This document shows positions 1 through 38,525 of a stretch of DNA of 38,525 nt, piece after piece; the stretch's first letter is position 1, and the number at the start of each line of letters is the position of its first letter. Below the pieces are notes generated by a model. It worked only from the letters and a program-made list of their open reading frames with translations. It did no database searches and was not told where the DNA came from. Both the position numbers and the translations under genes were made by a program. This stretch comes from a virus, in IMG/VR virus record IMGVR_UViG_3300020710_000017, positions 1 through 38,525 of that record; one strand, given 5' to 3'.

Positions 1-127
1 GAGGGATCTGCTGTCTGCGAGAGGCTTAATCCTGGGAGGCGTTGTTGAGTAATTATAGACCCCCTACGGGGGTAGTTGTCCCTGTGTATACTGTACTGTC
101 TGTAACAGTATGAGCAGGCTATATAAA
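1..127. repeat. Terminal direct repeat, left copy (contig closure)
   Basis: These 127 bases are identical to the last 127 bases of the window. An exact repeat of this length at both contig ends is what a de Bruijn assembler leaves on a circular contig (127 is a common k-mer size). The genome is therefore circular or circularly permuted as assembled, with a unit length of about 38,398 bp. A true packaged terminal repeat is possible but cannot be told apart from the sequence alone. Confidence 0.9.
52..82 (-). promoter_or_regulatory. Candidate leftward (late) promoter with a dyad in the spacer
   Basis: On the minus strand a perfect TATAAT (57-52) follows a GGGACA hexamer (82-77) at 19 bp. The spacer contains the perfect inverted repeat CCCCC-N3-GGGGG (60-72). 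Transcription would start near position 45, run across the contig join through the tRNA-like element, and reach the terminase gene. A 19-bp spacer centred on a dyad is typical of MerR-family activated promoters, but no MerR gene was seen. The dyad might bind another factor or simply form a hairpin. Confidence 0.4.
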
Positions 128-134
128 AGCCTGC
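88..134. promoter_or_regulatory. Overlapping inverted repeats (ATACTGT dyad and AGCAGGCT hairpin)
   Basis: ATACTGT at 88-94 is mirrored by ACAGTAT at 105-111. Directly after it, GCAGGCT and AGCCTGC flank the short AT-rich loop ATATAAA (114-134). TACTGT-type half-sites recur across the first 300 bases, which suggests operator sites for a dimeric regulator. No binding protein can be assigned. Confidence 0.4.
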
Positions 135-199
135 GAATAGCAGTTAATAAACTTTCTGCTCTATACTGTATTAATCCGTTCAAACAGTCAGAATGAACA

Positions 200-3860: not shown

Positions 3861-5699
3861 ATGAAGACGTTTGATCTCAAAGATTTCAAAGAAAGATTTA
3901 AAGATTACAAGCTAGAGTTTTCAAGGTCCAATAGAATTACTGCAGCATTAACACTAAACCGTGCTTCAGGTTTAACGCAACTTGTATATGATAACGGTGA
4001 TGAGTTAATACTTAACTTTAATGACATCCATAACTATACATATCAAGACAACGGTATTGTTAGAGATGTTCCGTATATATCGTATCTTCCTCAGCACACA
4101 CTAGATACGTTAGCTAGTATTACAATCACACAAAGCAAGATTATAGCTGTAGGTGTATGTGGTTGGATGACATCATACCAAGGCTGTAACAATGTTCGTG
4201 TTCTTTATGATGCTCACATGCATGATACATATGCAGATAGAGATGTAGATTTACCGGGTGTTTGCAGTGAATGTGCAAACGCAATGCTTATCAACTCAAC
4301 ATATCGTACGCCTCCAACGTATGATCAAGATGGTCTACGTGTAATTAATAAGATTATACCTGACAGTATGTTTGAAGAAGTTGAAGCAGACTTAAGTACA
4401 TGTGCTGCTTGTGATACAGATGTCTTAAGTCAAGCAACATTTGATGCAATGCTAACTTACTATGAGATTACTCCTGATAGTAATGTGTATGTTGCTACAC
4501 ATCGTTGGTTGCGCATGCTTGGTACTACTGGTTACGCTGAAGGTATACACAGCAACTTGCATAACATGTGTGCTGTTGCTTGTTACAATTGTGAGCAGAA
4601 GTATAGCAATAAAACTTCCGAAACAGTTGACGTTATTACTAACAATGGTTGGCAGAAAGTTTGCTGCCGTAATTGCGTAGAAGTATTGTGGGGTAGTCGC
4701 GCTGACGACATCGAAGATTTCTGGTGTGAGCATGGCGATCACTATGCTCAGCAGACACAAGATGAGTTTCGTTGGTCTGACTATTGGGACCGAGACATGT
4801 GTAACTATTGTTATGACATGTATGTAGAATGTAACGAATGTGGTTATGAGTACCATCAAGATACTGGTCACGATTGTGAAGATGAGTATGATGATGATGA
4901 TTCAGGTTTAGTTCATAACTATAGTTACAAGCCTAACCCAATCTTCTTTGGTGATAGTAAGTATTACTTTGGTATTGAGCTTGAGGTTGAGTCACGTGCT
5001 AGCCAAAAGTCTGAAGCTGCCGAAACAGTAGTCAATGCATTGAGTGAGCATGTGTATCTTAAGAGTGATGGTTCATTAGCCAATGGCTTTGAGATCGTTA
5101 CTCATCCGCATTCACTTGATTCATTCCATGAGTTAGAATGGGGTTGGCTTGACACAATCAAGAGTCAAGGTATGCGCTCCTGGAATACCGACTCATGTGG
5201 TTTGCATGTGCATGTAAGTCGTTCTGCCTTTGGTCCGGAAGGTTATCAAACCAACAGTAATGCAATGAAGTATCTGCATGAAGCACACCTTATTCGCTTT
5301 AACAAGTTCATCTATGACAACCAGATTCAAGTAGAAATTTTGGCTGGTCGTAAGAACAATAACTATGCTAGCTTTAGCGACAAGGGTAGAGTCATCCCTA
5401 AAGTTAAGCTTAATAGGCAGAGCAGTGGTCGTTACTCTGCAGTCAATCTCGAGAACCGCACAACTGTAGAGTTGCGCATGTTCAAAGGCTCGCTTCGTAA
5501 GGAGCGAGTACTCAGTGCAGTTGAGTTTACTCATGCAGTTGTAGAGTATACTCGCAATCTAAAAGTCCAAGCAAGCAAGCGTCCATTTGCTTGGAGTCGG
5601 TTCACTACCTATGTAACAAACAATGAAGAGCTATACCCAAACCTATTTACGATCATGTCCGAATCATTTGATCGTAGAGAAAACCGAGAGGATAACTAA
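3861..5699 (+). CDS. Amidoligase-family protein with cysteine-rich N-terminal region
   Basis: A 612-residue protein. The C-terminal part (about 368-560) matches the glutamine-synthetase-like amidoligase family: FGIELEVE (370-377), KSDGSL (401-406), EIVTHPHS (411-418), CGLHVHVS (446-453), and AVNL...TTVELRMFKGS (about 527-544), which supply the metal- and ATP-binding acidic and His residues of that fold. Such enzymes form amide bonds between a carboxylate and an amine. Residues 100-330 contain many CxxC pairs (CSEC 135, CAAC 181, CYNC 241, CNYC 314, CNEC 324), probably several zinc-ribbon modules, unusual beside this domain. The next gene is a glutamine amidotransferase two bases downstream, the expected ammonia source. 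The substrate is unknown; peptides of the host wall or a protein tail are candidates. Confidence 0.8.
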   Translation: MKTFDLKDFKERFKDYKLEFSRSNRITAALTLNRASGLTQLVYDNGDELILNFNDIHNYTYQDNGIVRDVPYISYLPQHTLDTLASITITQSKIIAVGVCGWMTSYQGCNNVRVLYDAHMHDTYADRDVDLPGVCSECANAMLINSTYRTPPTYDQDGLRVINKIIPDSMFEEVEADLSTCAACDTDVLSQATFDAMLTYYEITPDSNVYVATHRWLRMLGTTGYAEGIHSNLHNMCAVACYNCEQKYSNKTSETVDVITNNGWQKVCCRNCVEVLWGSRADDIEDFWCEHGDHYAQQTQDEFRWSDYWDRDMCNYCYDMYVECNECGYEYHQDTGHDCEDEYDDDDSGLVHNYSYKPNPIFFGDSKYYFGIELEVESRASQKSEAAETVVNALSEHVYLKSDGSLANGFEIVTHPHSLDSFHELEWGWLDTIKSQGMRSWNTDSCGLHVHVSRSAFGPEGYQTNSNAMKYLHEAHLIRFNKFIYDNQIQVEILAGRKNNNYASFSDKGRVIPKVKLNRQSSGRYSAVNLENRTTVELRMFKGSLRKERVLSAVEFTHAVVEYTRNLKVQASKRPFAWSRFTTYVTNNEELYPNLFTIMSESFDRRENREDN

Positions 5700-5701
5700 C
5701 T

Positions 5702-6574
5702 ATGTGTATGCTATGTGTAATCCCACCGCATGTTACTCCAGATAGAGACATGCTTATCAACTCAGCACTTAACAATCCTCATGGCTTTGGCTTTGCTATT
5801 GCTGTGCCAGATGAGCAGCGTATCATCAGCGAGCGCAGCATGAATGCTGATGAGTCTATCAACAGATTCCTTGAGGTACGTAGTCAGTATCAAGATGGCT
5901 ATGCCACATGGCATGCCCGCTATGCTACTCATGGTAGCAAGGTGATTGAGAACTGCCATCCGTTTGTAGTAGGCAACGACCTGCGTACCTACCTGTCACA
6001 CAATGGTATCCTAGATGTAGATGTACCTAAGGGTGATGACCGTAGTGATACCCGTATCTTTGCAGAAGAACTTATCCCTGCATTAGGTGGTGTCACCGCC
6101 CTTGATAATCCATGGGTGTTCGACATGCTTGAAGACTATACCTCTGGTTCTAAGGTAGCCATTCTTACTGTAGACCCTAAAGCTAAGCATGAACTGTATC
6201 TACTCAATGAACATCTAGGTTGGGAAGATAGCTCAGGTGTGTGGTGGTCTAACCAGACATGTTATCTAGATGCCTGGGTTACTGACTACCGCAGCAAAGA
6301 CTTTGCTAAGTATGACGATGAAGAGTATGATGTGCAAGCCTGGCTCAAAGCTTCAAAGCAATCCAATATATCCAAGTGGATCAACAAACCTGTTGATGGT
6401 AAGATTCAATGCGGTGCTTGTGATTATGTTAGCACAGAGAAAGAAGTTGCTGACTATGAGAATGCATGCTACAATTGTGGCTACTGCTTTGAGTGTGATG
6501 CTATAGCATCATGGTGTGATTGCTATACCCCATCTCAACACAAGGCGGCAGGTCTATGGGTACCAGAATACTAA
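5702..6574 (+). CDS. Class II glutamine amidotransferase (Ntn hydrolase)
   Basis: A 290-residue protein. Cys2 directly after Met1 is the expected N-terminal nucleophile once Met is removed. Other class II motifs are in order: HARYATHG (71-78), NCHPF (84-88), LSHNGI (98-103) and DTRIF (116-120). It releases ammonia from glutamine. A separate C-terminal zinc-ribbon region carries CGAC (237-240) and CYNCGYCFEC (256-265), echoing the cysteine-rich region of the upstream amidoligase. The two-base gap to that gene implies co-translation and a joint complex in which ammonia is passed to the ligase. No synthase domain is fused here, so the amidoligase is the natural partner. Confidence 0.85.
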   Translation: MCMLCVIPPHVTPDRDMLINSALNNPHGFGFAIAVPDEQRIISERSMNADESINRFLEVRSQYQDGYATWHARYATHGSKVIENCHPFVVGNDLRTYLSHNGILDVDVPKGDDRSDTRIFAEELIPALGGVTALDNPWVFDMLEDYTSGSKVAILTVDPKAKHELYLLNEHLGWEDSSGVWWSNQTCYLDAWVTDYRSKDFAKYDDEEYDVQAWLKASKQSNISKWINKPVDGKIQCGACDYVSTEKEVADYENACYNCGYCFECDAIASWCDCYTPSQHKAAGLWVPEY

Positions 6575-13266: not shown

Positions 13267-13426
13267 GTATGAATACAAGTGTAATCTTTGTGGTACACTT
13301 AAAGAGATCGAGCGCAGCTACTCTGACACAACGGAACCCCAATGCTGTAATGCTACCATGCAGCGTGTATGGAATGCTACGCCTACAATTTTTAAGACCG
13401 GTGGATTCTACAAGACGGGCAACTAA
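13259..13426 (+). CDS. FmdB-family zinc-ribbon protein
   Basis: A 55-residue protein starting at MPRYEYKC with GAGGAG upstream. The N-terminus YEYKCNLCG (C8, C11) and the CC at 29-30 are the zinc ligands of the FmdB regulatory family, which begins with a very similar MPxYEYxCxxCG. The following GGFYKTGN tail is also typical. Members are small and of uncertain regulatory role. The stop touches the WhiB start as TAATG. Confidence 0.75.
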   Translation: MPRYEYKCNLCGTLKEIERSYSDTTEPQCCNATMQRVWNATPTIFKTGGFYKTGN

Positions 13427-13695
13427 TGAAAGATGGATATCTCAGCATCGATTTTATGGATCGAGAAAAATGGAAAGACAATGCTAACTGTGCAGGCATA
13501 GACACAGAAGAGTTCTTTCAAGATGGACCTGGCAATCAGTACGACCCTAGGCTACTTACCATCTGCAACAACTGTTACGTCAGACGTGACTGCCTAAACT
13601 ATGCCATTGAGAACAACGAAGAAGGTTATTGGGCTGGTACTACACCAAGAACCAGACAAAGAATCAGATCTGGCAGACAGAAACTACCCTCCTGA
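13426..13695 (+). CDS. whiB: WhiB-family Fe-S transcription regulator
   Basis: An 89-residue protein with the four WhiB cysteines (C22, C47, C50, C56) in the order C-x24-CNNC-x5-C, which hold a 4Fe-4S cluster. The signature turn is GYWAGTT (67-73, GVWGG in cellular members), and a basic tail RTRQRIRSGRQK follows for DNA contact. WhiB proteins bind sigma factor region 4 and alter promoter choice; phage members can repress host whiB genes. It is the last gene of the early block and ends inside a terminator. It is the strongest evidence for an actinobacterial host. Confidence 0.9.
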   Translation: MKDGYLSIDFMDREKWKDNANCAGIDTEEFFQDGPGNQYDPRLLTICNNCYVRRDCLNYAIENNEEGYWAGTTPRTRQRIRSGRQKLPS

Positions 13696-17341: not shown

Positions 17342-17569
17342 TTACTGCTTGATATTAAACAAAGCAGATACTTCGTCGGGCGTTAGCCCAAGAGAAGCAA
17401 GCTTAGAAACTGCTGATGCTTTAGCATTCTCTGCTGCAACAGCAGCATCTTTTGCTGCTTGCTCTGCTGCAAGAATTGCGTTGTAATCGTCAATCTCTTG
17501 TTGAGTGAAAGGGCGGGTCACGCCCTCACCTGTTTCACCGTTAACTTCTAATTTAATCAAATCATCCAT
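17342..17569 (-). CDS. Small tail-fibre partner or chaperone-like protein
   Basis: A 75-residue protein directly after the fibre gene, joined by TAATG. It begins with a short beta stretch (IKLEVNGETGEGVTRPFTQQEIDDYNAI) and continues as an Ala/Lys-rich helix ending with LGLTPDEVSALF. Similar small proteins after fibre genes serve as assembly chaperones or as trimer-binding parts; here that is inferred from position. Confidence 0.55.
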   Translation of the reverse strand: MDDLIKLEVNGETGEGVTRPFTQQEIDDYNAILAAEQAAKDAAVAAENAKASAVSKLASLGLTPDEVSALFNIKQ

Positions 17570-19905
17570 TAGCTATTTCCTAATCCATAGACACGAATTG
17601 TTCCTGTAATTGCAGAGCCAAACGTTACAGTAAAGCCATCAAATGCTGAAGCAACAGCATGGTTTCCAGCTGCAATGCCTACACCGTAAAGAGGAGCTAT
17701 TGTACTACCGTACATGGGCAATGAAGAGTAATATGTATTTGCTGCCAAAGCAGGTGAATATATACACATATGCAATGGGTGAGCACCTTGATCTGTAACC
17801 GGTGAAGGTTTCCAACCCGTTGTCTGGTTAATTTGGTTAGACGTTGAAACGGTTTGACCAGTAGTACCAGTTGTGTAAAGCGTTGTATCGTAATAGCTAG
17901 CACTGCTATCTGTACCAGATGCACGTAACTTCATGGTTACTGTACCAGCAGTTGCTGATATTACAACCATATAGTTATCGTAGGTTGTATTAAATACTGA
18001 GTTAACAGATACAGATGTTACAGATGTAAATGAAGTTGAAGTAACTAACTTCATGCTGCTGTTAACAGAACCATCTGCCATTAAGAATTGAGCAGAAGTA
18101 CCACCAGACTTAACAAGTGATGTAGCGGTTAAGGTACCAGTATGTGTAGTTGTTCCAGTGATACCAATAGTAGCATTGGTGTGGCCAATATTAATTGGTG
18201 TAGCACCAGTACCAACGGTAGCAATGTTAAGAGTGCCAGTTGTTAAACCAGCACCAATTGCCATTGTTCCTGTTGTAGTATTTGGGAACAAAGTAGTAGT
18301 TGTTGCTGTTGCACTTGCTGAGTTAATTACATCAGCAACAGTAGTACCAGCAAGCGTTGTTGTGTTACCAGACTTACCAATAGTTACAGCACCAGTGGTT
18401 GCTCCGATGCTAATTGTTCCAGATGTAGAGCCACCGCCAGCATTGATGGTAACGTTACCACCAGTTCCAGTGCCACCAGTACCTGCAGTTAAGGTCAATG
18501 AACCTCCTGCACCGGATGCAGTTGATCCAGCAGCAAGCGAAGCACTACCGCCAGCAGAAGTAGCACCGCCACCATTAAGTGTAAGTACGCCACCGCCCGC
18601 AGTTCCTCCATTACCACCAGCAGTTAACGTAACTGTTCCACCTACACCAGTACCGCCACCAGTAGCATTACCAGTAGTAATGTTAATAGCGTTAGAGTTT
18701 ACGTTAATAGTGGATGTTGCTGGCGTGCTAAGTGTTGGGTTTGTAATAGTCAAACTATCAACCGTTGAGATTGTCGTACCAGAAGTTACTACTGTGGTAC
18801 CAAGAGTAGGTGCGCTGTATGTAGCAGCAGGTGCAGCCCACGCAGCGGTAGTACCATTGGATGTTAACAACCAACCAGAGGTTGTTGCAATGGAAAGGTT
18901 AGCGGGTGTACTTGCAGAAGATGCTACAAGGATCGAACCTGTAGAAGCATAAGTTGATTTAGCAACGGATGCAGATACAGATGCAGCAGCAGATGCTGCA
19001 GATGTAGCAGCAGCCGTAGCAGATGCAGCAGCTGAAGTAGCTGAAGTAGCAGCTGCAGTAGCAGATGCAGCAGCGCTTGTGGCGCTGGTTGCTGCAGCCG
19101 TAGCAGATGCTGCTGCTGATGTAGCAGAAGTTGTTGCAGCAGTTGCTTGCGTTGTTGCAGTAGCAGCAGAGTTAAACGCAGTAGTTGCGCTAGCAGCAGC
19201 TGATGTAGCAGATGTAGCAGCAGCAGTAGCCTGTGTTGCTGCTGACGTTGCTGATGTAGCAGCAGCAGTTGCTGAAGCAGCAGCCGATGTGGCTGATGTT
19301 GCAGCTGCTGTAGCCGAAGCAGCTGCAGATGTAGCACTTGTTGCTGCCTGTGCAACTTGTGAGGATGAAGCCGTATCTACATAATTCTTAGTAGCAGCAC
19401 CAGTAGAAGTTGTAGGGTCTGCAAGTCCAGTAATCTTAAAGCCACCAGCAGCAAGGTCAGAACCTAGCGTCTTGTTGGAAAGAGTTTGAGTAGCGGTAGT
19501 ACCAACTACGTAACCGTCTGATGATCCAAGGCCATGCAGATTGTGCTGAGCCGTACCATCGTTATATGATGTTGCTGCTTCAATGTGCTTGTTAGATTCA
19601 CGTAGGTCGCGGCCAATAACCATGTGGCGCACAATAGCGCCAGAAAAGTGATCAACAGCATTTGAACCGTCAACACCTCGGTTAGCGGTAACGTTGTTGC
19701 TACCTACAGAGTAAGCAGTAATCTCAATGATTTCTTCTGAGGCTGTGTCTGGGTCAACAACTACAGTAAAGGTATTGCCACCAGATACAGCACCGACAGG
19801 AATCAACGCAGCAGCGTTGAACAGCTGGAATAAATTAGCACCAGCCGTTGTTGTAGCAGTAAGTGTTGTCTGCTGAGAACGTGAAGAATATAAACGAGTT
19901 GTCAT
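17569..19905 (-). CDS. Tail fibre with alanine-rich repeats
   Basis: A 778-residue fibre. Residues 1-165 form an N-terminal attachment domain (TVVVDPDTASEEIIEITA, then GRDLRESNKHIEAATSY). Next comes an Ala/Ser/Thr repeat region built from about 14-residue units (SATSAAASATAAAT), a probable trimeric rod. The middle is Gly/Thr-rich (TLTAGGNGGTAGGG, TLNGGGATSAGG, TLTAGTGGTGTGG), repeated like a beta-solenoid. The C-terminal 140 residues (TSFTSVTSVSVNS to GTIRVYGLGNS) form a globular tip that likely binds the host. It is followed by a small partner gene. Confidence 0.8.
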   Translation of the reverse strand: MTTRLYSSRSQQTTLTATTTAGANLFQLFNAAALIPVGAVSGGNTFTVVVDPDTASEEIIEITAYSVGSNNVTANRGVDGSNAVDHFSGAIVRHMVIGRDLRESNKHIEAATSYNDGTAQHNLHGLGSSDGYVVGTTATQTLSNKTLGSDLAAGGFKITGLADPTTSTGAATKNYVDTASSSQVAQAATSATSAAASATAAATSATSAAASATAAATSATSAATQATAAATSATSAAASATTAFNSAATATTQATAATTSATSAAASATAAATSATSAAASATAAATSATSAAASATAAATSAASAAASVSASVAKSTYASTGSILVASSASTPANLSIATTSGWLLTSNGTTAAWAAPAATYSAPTLGTTVVTSGTTISTVDSLTITNPTLSTPATSTINVNSNAINITTGNATGGGTGVGGTVTLTAGGNGGTAGGGVLTLNGGGATSAGGSASLAAGSTASGAGGSLTLTAGTGGTGTGGNVTINAGGGSTSGTISIGATTGAVTIGKSGNTTTLAGTTVADVINSASATATTTTLFPNTTTGTMAIGAGLTTGTLNIATVGTGATPINIGHTNATIGITGTTTHTGTLTATSLVKSGGTSAQFLMADGSVNSSMKLVTSTSFTSVTSVSVNSVFNTTYDNYMVVISATAGTVTMKLRASGTDSSASYYDTTLYTTGTTGQTVSTSNQINQTTGWKPSPVTDQGAHPLHMCIYSPALAANTYYSSLPMYGSTIAPLYGVGIAAGNHAVASAFDGFTVTFGSAITGTIRVYGLGNS
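18955..19345 (-). repeat. Low-complexity GCA/GCT-rich repeat within the fibre gene
   Basis: DNA coding for the SATSAAASATAAA units is a near-tandem repeat of about 42 bases, mostly GCAGCAG/GCTGCTG-type codons on the coding strand. It is prone to slippage and length change between strains. Codon use is not perfectly repeated, which shows that the array is not recent throughout. Confidence 0.75.
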
Positions 19906-36307: not shown

Positions 36308-38218
36308 CTATCCGTATGTTTCGGACCATTGAGATGCAAAGGCATCGTCTAGGTTGATTTGAGTTCGTCTTTCCATTTGGGACCGTGTAGCCCACCTGTT
36401 GTTTAGGTAAGGAGTTACATGGGTATTTTTTTGAATCATCTCTCGCGCTCTAATGATTGTAAACCAGAGTGCCATTACGCAGTCAGTTGCGCCTTTGGTA
36501 TCTGGTCTCCACGTCAGTAGTTGTTGGACAAGAGCTTTAATTCCTTCGCTGCCTTCTGAGGAAGGCAACTCAATAATGTTGTTCTTCTGGTGCTTGTCGT
36601 TGACAGTAGTACCGAAGAGGCTCGACATAGACGAGACTCCAAGATTGGTATCCCACTTGTTCTTGCCTGTAAAGTGTGAGGTAAGCTTTACGCCATAACC
36701 GGCAAGCCAGTTACGGAAGTCAACGTCAAGCTCGTACGCCTTCTGGAAAGCATTGATCTCCATACGGATCTCTTGTGGCTTGTACTTGTTGGTCAATTCC
36801 TTGACCTGGTTAATAATCTTTTGGTAGTTCGGTTCGGTCATGTTAATGCAATCAAGCACATAGATCTTGCCATCAGCACGGTTGTATGCCGTCACTACGA
36901 ATGCTGCTTTACCTGCTGTAGCTGGGTCTACGCCAATCATGACGTAAGGCTCTACATGGTTAGGGTGTCCTACTGCTCCAGGTCGTAAGGGACCCACACG
37001 CCGTGCTCCGTTGGTACTTCCTGTAACGAGTGGAGGGGGGAAGGTTGAATCTTCTTCAATGTCTTCCTGTTGGTAGACAAGAGCCCACGTGCTAGGAGTA
37101 ACCTCACTGCGACGCTTGAATAGGGTTGCCCCATCCCACTTCGGGTAGTACCCTTCTTCATCCGCCGGAATCTCATCGTCCCCGTCCCACGGGACGTCCG
37201 ACTTTGGCCAGAGCGTGACCCATTCTTTCGGGTCAGCATTAAACTCCAAAACCGCAGGCATACCCATATAAGTAAAAGGGCTACGACCGCTGGACCAATG
37301 TTTTGGATTACGAAGTTCTTTGTAGAGGTCATTGGCTGCAATCCGTGTCCCTACTACTAGAAGTTTACCGTTCTTACCCAGACGGGTGATGACTTCTTTC
37401 TGAAGCCAGTTCATCTGCTTTTCCCACTCATGAGCGTTAGCGGTGGTAATGCAGTCATCAAGGATAATCAGATCGGCGCGTGCGCCGTAGATCTGTCCAC
37501 CCATGCCAAGAGCTTGAATCGTTGGATCCTTCTCCGAAGAATTACGCGCATCGCTTCCGAGGTATACCGTGTCAGTGCGCCAAGTGTCGGCGTCCTCTTT
37601 CCATCCTCCCTCAGGACCAAATGCGTTCTGCATCTTTAGGTACATAGGGTGGGAGAGGCGCTGCTTGATTGCGTACACGAACTCGCGTGCTTTAACCAGG
37701 GTCTTAGAAACTACGATGATTCTAACGTTTGGGTCGAGAGCGATGCGGTAAGTTGAGTAATTGACCGTGATAACGGTCGACTTAGCATGCTCAGGTGGCA
37801 CGTTGACCAGCAAGCGGTTTTTCTCCGCTGGCTCATAGATCATGCTAGGATGCAGGTAGTTAGGCTCTCGTCCCTCTAGCAGGTCTACCCAGTCTTGATG
37901 GTGGGGAAATACAGTTTGATTCAAAAATGCTTTTGAGAACTCAGCGAAGGTGAGCTCGTTCTTTGGCTTGCCCAGGCTCTCCAGGGAGGTAGCTTCGCCC
38001 CTCTCCTTTGCTCCTTCAAGCGCTTCCGCAAAGTCGGGGTCCCGGAGGATCCACTGCCTGATAGTATCAGGTTTACGGCCTACGGCTACCATAGCCTGGT
38101 GCGTTGTCGCACCCTTGGCTACCATATCCACAACTTTGTCTTTGTCTTCTTTTAGAGCCTTAACCTTAAAGTGGTCAGCTCCTGAGCCAAATCCTTGGCC
38201 ACGTCCCTTGGTTGCCAA
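36308..38218 (-). CDS. Terminase large subunit with N-terminal HTH
   Basis: A 636-residue protein starting at TTG with AGGAG five bases upstream. Residues 25-75 hold a helix-turn-helix-like unit (TTHQAMVAVGRKPDTIRQWI) that resembles the DNA-binding domain of small terminases. The ATPase has NVPPEHAKST (139-148, P-loop), LIILDDC (250-256, Walker B) and VVGTRI (288-293, coupling motif). The nuclease domain begins at VMIGVDPATAGKAAF (about 413) with the first metal-binding Asp and continues through EIRMEINAF. It packages DNA. No separate small terminase gene was recognised. Confidence 0.9.
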   Translation of the reverse strand: MATKGRGQGFGSGADHFKVKALKEDKDKVVDMVAKGATTHQAMVAVGRKPDTIRQWILRDPDFAEALEGAKERGEATSLESLGKPKNELTFAEFSKAFLNQTVFPHHQDWVDLLEGREPNYLHPSMIYEPAEKNRLLVNVPPEHAKSTVITVNYSTYRIALDPNVRIIVVSKTLVKAREFVYAIKQRLSHPMYLKMQNAFGPEGGWKEDADTWRTDTVYLGSDARNSSEKDPTIQALGMGGQIYGARADLIILDDCITTANAHEWEKQMNWLQKEVITRLGKNGKLLVVGTRIAANDLYKELRNPKHWSSGRSPFTYMGMPAVLEFNADPKEWVTLWPKSDVPWDGDDEIPADEEGYYPKWDGATLFKRRSEVTPSTWALVYQQEDIEEDSTFPPPLVTGSTNGARRVGPLRPGAVGHPNHVEPYVMIGVDPATAGKAAFVVTAYNRADGKIYVLDCINMTEPNYQKIINQVKELTNKYKPQEIRMEINAFQKAYELDVDFRNWLAGYGVKLTSHFTGKNKWDTNLGVSSMSSLFGTTVNDKHQKNNIIELPSSEGSEGIKALVQQLLTWRPDTKGATDCVMALWFTIIRAREMIQKNTHVTPYLNNRWATRSQMERRTQINLDDAFASQWSETYG

Positions 38219-38274
38219 TGTGACTCCTAGTCATCGCGCAAAATTTAGAACTCAACAGCTACTCGATGCACGTG

Positions 38275-38375
38275 TGCGCATCTCAGGAATCGAACCCTGT
38301 CTTCCGTATTGCAGGTTCATCGGTACGTACTCCGACCCGAACCCTACGGCGTGCTAGCCATTACACCATGACGCA
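38275..38375 (-). tRNA. tRNA-like element with enlarged anticodon arm
   Basis: The minus strand has TGGTGTAATGGCTAGCAC, a typical D-arm, and CAGGGTTCGATTCCTG, a typical T-arm. CCGTA and TACGG form a 5-bp anticodon stem at the expected places, but 36 bases lie between them instead of seven. The extra 29 bases fold as GGTTC/GAACC and TCGG/CCGA around AGTACGTA. Without the insert the loop would read CCTGCAA (a TGC, alanine-type anticodon without T33); the apical loop could instead show ACG. The acceptor ends match only with a bulged base (TGCG-T-CAT against ATGCGCA), and the T-stem lacks one pair. No CCA is encoded. A decayed tRNA or a tRNA mimic is more likely than an ordinary tRNA. Confidence 0.45.
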
Positions 38376-38398
38376 TCTCTTTTGCCCGCTATCCACAA

Positions 38399-38525
38399 GA
38401 GGGATCTGCTGTCTGCGAGAGGCTTAATCCTGGGAGGCGTTGTTGAGTAATTATAGACCCCCTACGGGGGTAGTTGTCCCTGTGTATACTGTACTGTCTG
38501 TAACAGTATGAGCAGGCTATATAAA
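38399..38525. repeat. Terminal direct repeat, right copy (contig closure)
   Basis: Exact copy of the first 127 bases. It joins the upstream side of the terminase gene and the tRNA-like element to the left control region, so the two intergenic stretches form a single region of about 1.2 kb between the divergent gene blocks. Confidence 0.9.

Follow-up and report, generated by a model that had tools for sequence, protein, structure and literature searches.

To our knowledge, tRNA mimicry in the leader of an mRNA occurs in only a few cases. One of them is the thrS gene of Escherichia coli, whose mRNA has a tRNA-like fold in its 5' leader; the synthetase binds this fold, through which its gene is controlled (PMC5723415, in the part of the article available). 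Other tRNA-shaped RNAs that do not decode, such as the phi80-induced RNA and the TYMV tRNA-like structure, are substrates of RNase P, and it is established that this enzyme acts on RNAs of phages and on structures resembling tRNAs, according to the available sections of a review (PMC11143913). HDV-like theta ribozymes are structured RNAs found beside phage tRNAs; they are thought to process the tRNA and have been proposed to act on its 3' trailer (PMC10879173, available in part). Phages also encode tRNAs whose anticodon region is altered so that they evade nucleases, and in the accessible text these are decoding tRNAs with changes in the loop (PMC10264068).

Here we describe a tRNA-like element in the leader of a phage terminase gene. 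The window, that is, the whole stretch of DNA that was analysed, is 38,525 nucleotides long and comes from IMG/VR record IMGVR_UViG_3300020710_000017. With canonical phage tRNA genes (RF00005) the element shares a D-arm, a T-arm and an anticodon stem at standard positions; it differs from them in a score below the cut-off, a 36-nt anticodon loop, the lack of U33, an irregular T-loop, an acceptor mismatch and its membership of a cassette whose hairpin is fixed. It shares with the thrS mimic only its position in a leader; the gene behind the cassette encodes terminase. The hairpin of the cassette is 5' of the tRNA-like body, unlike the proposed site of theta ribozymes, and the nuclease-evading tRNAs differ in having loop changes where the window element has an elongated arm. 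Like the RNase P substrates, the element is a tRNA-shaped RNA of a virus that does not decode; its own cleavage is putative. A search of the literature, covering open-licence papers, listed no module of this tRNA-like kind in the leader of a phage terminase gene. If our reading of the cassette is true, a tRNA-shaped, non-decoding unit ahead of the packaging gene of a phage would put the tRNA fold to a new use. Sequences that look like remnants of tRNAs in phage genomes may likewise belong to structured RNAs, which tRNA finders overlook or label as pseudogenes.

The phage genome and its host

The first 127 bases of the record are identical to the last 127 (positions 1-127 and 38399-38525), and assembly word lengths are commonly 127. 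Because the ends repeat over exactly this usual word length, the assembly is very likely circular and complete, with 38,398 bases, although the record's class is linear or lacking end repeats. The host is a bacterium and probably an actinobacterium, judging from gene content, because the phage encodes a WhiB transcription factor and an actinophage-like terminase, short stretches of whose gene resemble Streptomyces phages at ~64-74% DNA identity. One phage protein also gave a weak match, below the cut-off, to a mycobacteriophage L5 family. Two other regions of the window stood out. Dense imperfect repeats with a spacing of 9, 12 or 21 bases occupy 18899-19389 within a tail-fibre-like open reading frame (17569-19905, minus strand), and at 3861-6574 (plus strand) an amidoligase-like gene (PF12224) is followed by a gene that weakly matches a family of the glutamine amidotransferase type. 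The coordinates of the features discussed below are given in Table 1.

Table 1. Features of the terminase leader and related loci; positions are those of the window unless another record is named.
Feature	Position	Strand	Remarks
WhiB transcription factor gene	13426-13695	+	53 bits
Terminase large subunit gene	36308..38218	-	TTG start 38218; PHROG terminase large subunit, E 4.3e-71
Hairpin GATGCGC-ACAC-GTGCATC directly after T-arm	38265..38282	-	7 bp; 59/3000 shuffles as good
tRNA-like domain, whole	38276..38375	-	RF00005 16.1 bits; cloverleaf is minimum-energy fold of 101 nt alone
T-arm CAGG-GTTCGATT-CCTG	38284..38299	-	loop one base off normal 7 nt
Elongated anticodon arm, outer stem CCGTA/TACGG 5/5	38304..38349	-	inner stems GGTTC/GAACC, GTCGG/CCGAT
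Tip of this arm, loop AGTACGTA	38319..38336	-	contains TACGTA
D-arm GTGT-AATGGCTA-GCAC, 4/4 pairs	38351..38366	-	same D-arm in real tRNAs
Hairpin, 5' half of cassette	38393..38434	-	loop motif CTCTCGCAGACAG at 38409-38421; motif recurs at 11-23 via end overlap
Late-leader hairpin GCAGGC-TTTTATATA-GCCTGC	114..134	-	conserved; upstream of cassette across circle join; outside cassette
Conserved block TGTTTGAACGGATTAATAC...	159..186	-	putative late promoter region
Intact tRNA-Arg(ACG) of L097	1411-1482 of L097		directly upstream of terminase; loop TTACGTA, unusual T at position 37

A tRNA-derived element that does not decode

The earlier note on this DNA had placed a tRNA-like element in the leader upstream of terminase, and its position in the sequence agrees, 57 nt before the TTG start. 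The Rfam tRNA model covers the element end to end (model positions 1-71), and all four arms are paired, with 4/4 pairs in the D-arm, 5/5 in the anticodon stem, 4-5 in the T-arm and 6/7 in the acceptor (TGCGTCA/AGATGCG) if a terminal U-G is counted. The deviations that had been noted in the acceptor and T stems are also there: besides the acceptor mismatch, the T-arm can be drawn as CAGGG/TCCTG with a 6-nt loop or as CAGG/CCTG with an 8-nt loop, and neither is the usual 7 nt. Between the CCGTA/TACGG strands lie 36 nt, which equals a standard 7-nt anticodon loop plus a surplus of 29, and they fold into a hairpin. The earlier description of a 29-base insert in the loop was therefore right about the surplus hairpin, but an elongated anticodon arm describes the element better. 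U33 is absent when counted from either side of this 36-nt loop.

The score of 16.1 bits compares with an Rfam gathering score of 29 bits (E 0.03 over the whole 38.5-kb record), and ARAGORN in its default mode called no tRNA in the window. ARAGORN in its relaxed, intron-aware mode was uninformative: it does call the element, yet at this setting the window yields about 110 calls, so the call is no evidence. Because it lacks U33, has a T-loop of the wrong length and a mismatched acceptor and scores below the cut-off, the element is, on its sequence, a non-decoding RNA and no working tRNA.

A tRNA origin of the element is nevertheless close to certain from sequence comparison. A pattern made of its D-arm (GTGTAATGGCTAGCAC) and the T-motif GGTTCGA, 25 to 55 nt apart, was scanned against 257 billion bases of prokaryote sequence and gave 28 matches, of which 27 are tRNAs according to ARAGORN and the last is truncated because its locus ends there. 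It is the agreement of these matches with tRNAs, and the presence of the same D-arm in phage tRNAs, that makes this origin near certain; the tRNAs that have this D-arm include genuine ones of the Gln, Pro, His, Glu and CTA kinds. Exact-pattern scans of IMG/VR with the D-arm or the T-arm, also including the 29-nt surplus, gave no match.

The hairpin formed by the 29-nt surplus could be taken for a splicable intron in a tRNA, a reading that is hardly credible. The surplus falls far below the length of group I introns, no removal of 29 nt leaves a U33, and inspection of the fold revealed no bulge-helix-bulge. The bacterial, probably actinobacterial host, indicated by WhiB and the actinophage-like terminase, speaks against tRNA splicing of the archaeal type as well.

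A two-part cassette in four terminase leaders

Relatives were collected with two terminase profile scans of IMG/VR, which returned at least 80 loci each and overlap. Leader length was taken as the distance between the terminase match and a conserved block upstream of it (TTTGAACGG.TTA), in 93 records including the window; 15 records without the block (contig ends or differing leaders) were dropped, and L161 and L182, which start inside the gene, were left out. Among the matches listed, 88 of the 93 leaders are 108-204 nt long, too short for the cassette. The five longer ones are those of L074 (251 nt), L083 (310 nt), L145 (317 nt), the window (364 nt) and L097 (397 nt). Inspection of the L074 leader revealed neither cassette nor tRNA-like body, and the four longest leaders (310-397 nt) all hold the cassette, which combines a hairpin with a near-invariant CTCTC[AG]CAGA[AC]AG loop, a tRNA-like domain 37-42 nt later and a place in the terminase leader. 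The distances from hairpin to D-stem are 42, 40, 41 and 37 nt. These four are the only leaders with this combination among the 93 (matches listed), so about 95% of the relatives listed are without it, which counts against reading it as a functional module. That four divergent phages share its location and its constant spacing is an observation, as is one clean insertion: L145 and L070 form a filled and an empty site, with an insert of exactly 173 nt between flanks that are identical over 120/120 positions on the left and 22/22 on the right.

The loop motif was found in 8 of 183 loci, which are the four cassette records fetched repeatedly. A covariance model of the hairpin (R1), run over 97 whole records, scored 45-53 bits at the four cassette sites and at most 14.3 bits elsewhere, the repeat in the end overlap of the window aside; as the model was trained on the same four cassettes, these scores show absence elsewhere and are no independent confirmation. 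The nearest relatives of the window, L016-L021, share the late-leader hairpin of Table 1 and have no tRNA-like element in their leaders. In 4 of these 6 the distance from hairpin to terminase start is 60-70 nt, the spacing in L020 and L021 being counted from a start codon upstream of the one used later. A 'tRNA-Ile' called by ARAGORN in L018 falls on this conserved hairpin and was taken as spurious. BLAST of the cassettes against phages gave only short matches, several of them within tRNA genes, and a plasmid search for the cassette gave none.

A short leader peptide or coding remnant would be another way to explain a conserved stretch here, and in L083 an open frame of 75 codons does run through the region. 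This explanation is very improbable, as the frame of the motif has no start codon in the window and L145, and the frames end after 35 (window), 19 (L145) and 25 (L097) codons.

The tRNA-like bodies of the four cassettes

The anticodon stems of the four bodies differ in sequence and all pair (CCGTA/TACGG, CCGA/TCGG, CTGGA/TCCAG and CCCAC/GTGGG), which with only four cassettes is thin covariation. Relatives without conserved pairing in the arms had been named in the earlier note as a reason to abandon the element; the relatives that have it keep the pairing. Since a MAFFT alignment of the full cassettes was poor, pairs were counted without it. In a search for D and anticodon stems anchored only on the T-motif, with stems in their canonical places and loops of up to 40 nt in the window and up to 13 nt in the others, the score was reached by 48 of 2000 shuffles for the window, 122 for L145, 16 for L083 and 7 for L097, and Fisher's method over these four counts gives p ~ 4e-5. 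When loops of up to 40 nt are allowed, L145 becomes unremarkable (425/2000), and for L097 the script returned a layout other than the drawn one, with a choice of stems tied at score 9; both again go against a module. The same is true of the folding of the window element: the 101 nt alone give a full cloverleaf at -33.6 kcal/mol with a z-score of only -1.06, and with added flank a different fold beats it.

RF00005 scores 19.8 bits in the L145 leader and 41.7 bits in that of L097. In L083 it yielded no candidate at E values up to 10; the tRNA-Sec model gave 19.1 bits there against a cut-off of 47, with TTACGTA as the anticodon loop. Of the two bodies in L097, one is degenerate: its loop has 13 nt, no acceptor could be drawn for it, and its fold has a z-score of 0.03. 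The other is the intact tRNA-Arg(ACG), which in BLAST matches tRNA-Arg of Cellulophaga phages. A tRNA search over 114 whole records found no tRNA-like match in the terminase leader of any other record. Two low-scoring places, at 16.0 bits in the L086 record and 13.4 bits in the L098 record, are far from the terminase leader and were taken as chance.

The sequence TACGTA is common to the tip of the arm in the window, the anticodon loop of L083 and that of the L097 tRNA-Arg(ACG), and the elongated arm of the window possibly comes from a tRNA-Arg(ACG) ancestor. This ancestry is suggestive only, because it rests on six bases in three elements. The tip also reads AGUACG, which is presumably sarcin-ricin-like.

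These bodies are where an account by decay has its footing. tRNA genes would be captured repeatedly at a hot spot just upstream of terminase, perhaps with the hairpin, would work for a short time or never, and would then degenerate, the long arm being due to drift or duplication. An intact tRNA beside a degenerate body in L097 is what such a process would leave, the elements of the window, L083 and L145 are all below the tRNA cut-off, and the TACGTA of L083 and the window could be relics of tRNA-Arg(ACG). Decay is a possible but on balance unlikely explanation: 4/4 cassettes have constant spacing and a near-invariant loop in the hairpin, the arms remain paired though their sequences differ, the hairpin motif was found in no other record searched, and the other terminase leaders searched lack a tRNA-like match. 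The proposals of the earlier note (decayed tRNA, mimic, processing signal, decoy) are indistinguishable from sequence. A mutated copy of a normal tRNA, however, is not the simplest account, because the element forms one half, the 3' one, of a cassette with two parts, which three other records have in divergent form and the remaining 88 short leaders and L074 do without.

Possible roles of the cassette

The sequence evidence points to the cassette being a non-coding RNA module rather than a lone broken tRNA. Our preferred explanation, to which we give a probability of about 40%, is that the element is part of a structured, non-decoding leader RNA module that is inserted as a unit and whose tRNA body serves as a handle for recognition or processing. 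We favour it because the four longest leaders share motif, spacing and paired arms and because L145 and L070 show a clean insert. The cassette lies whole between the conserved block upstream and the ribosome-binding site of terminase, and would be transcribed within the terminase leader. A tRNA-like elbow would form between the GG of the D-loop and the TTC of the T-loop, and enzymes that recognise tRNA bodies, most likely RNase P at the 5' side, may act on it. Cleavage would then part the terminase mRNA from the leader RNA that bears the hairpin, and leave a 5' end that is structured and stable. Since nothing decodes with the anticodon arm, it would be free to vary, and in the window it would have grown long. 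Processing by a theta ribozyme was considered and rejected, as the hairpin is on the 5' side and there was no match to an HDV-like or other ribozyme in Rfam.

After processing or recognition we rank decay, then a decoy, then a cis regulator. A decoy or anti-defence RNA would use an altered or longer anticodon arm to absorb or resist anticodon nucleases or other tRNA-targeting defences. The anticodon arm is indeed the most variable part of the cassette (36-nt, 7-nt and 13-nt loops), and phage tRNAs that escape anticodon nucleases by loop changes have been reported (PMC10264068, PMC11555353, each available in part). Such a role is rather doubtful here: the phages in the accessible reports use decoding tRNAs and the window element is non-decoding, a place in the terminase leader would mean late appearance, and any defence partner is hypothetical.

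A cis regulator of terminase, acting as a switch between two folds through a shared strand or by binding a synthetase-like protein as in thrS, would fit the position of the cassette in the leader, immediately upstream of the ribosome-binding site. The 5' arm of the hairpin directly after the T-arm overlaps the 3' strand of the acceptor, so that acceptor and hairpin are mutually exclusive, and a competing hairpin this good arose in 59 of 3000 shuffles for the window and 70 for L097. The pairing is weak in L083 (211/3000) and L145 (566/3000), two of the four cassettes, and we rejected this hairpin as a conserved switch. It also leaves the ribosome-binding site uncovered, and regulation in cis is improbable.

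A more far-reaching reading is that the cassettes define a novel class of phage non-coding RNA, small and insertable, in which a conserved hairpin is joined to a tRNA-shaped body with a diversifying anticodon arm. Such an RNA would pass between phages as a cassette at the terminase leader and act as a decoy against host systems aimed at tRNAs, or as a small RNA released by RNase P. The arms do range from a 13-nt loop through a TACGTA loop to a long arm tipped by TACGTA, but we hold such a class to be unlikely.

Other structures in the late leader

Outside the cassette, most of the 93 leaders have a hairpin just downstream of the conserved block, with stems that change and yet stay complementary (GCAGGCT/AGCCTGC, GCAAGTTCT/GGAACTTGC, AGAACTCT/AGAGTTCT and GTAACCCC/GGGGTTAC). 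The hairpins were picked by a script, which chose another one in some leaders. By its sequence, this hairpin looks like a conserved RNA structure of the late leader. The conserved block is probably the late promoter region, a function suggested by its sequence and position, and a search for a sigma-70 consensus there gave no match. In L068 and L074, which have longer leaders without the cassette, there is a G+C-rich hairpin and a stretch TGTGGATAAC, which we take to be DnaA-box-like; the window cassette has TGTGGATAGC. Finally, TATAATTACTC at 38445-38455 of the window is also present in the leaders of the more distant phages L003-L006 and may be a shared element of the minus-10 type, or chance.
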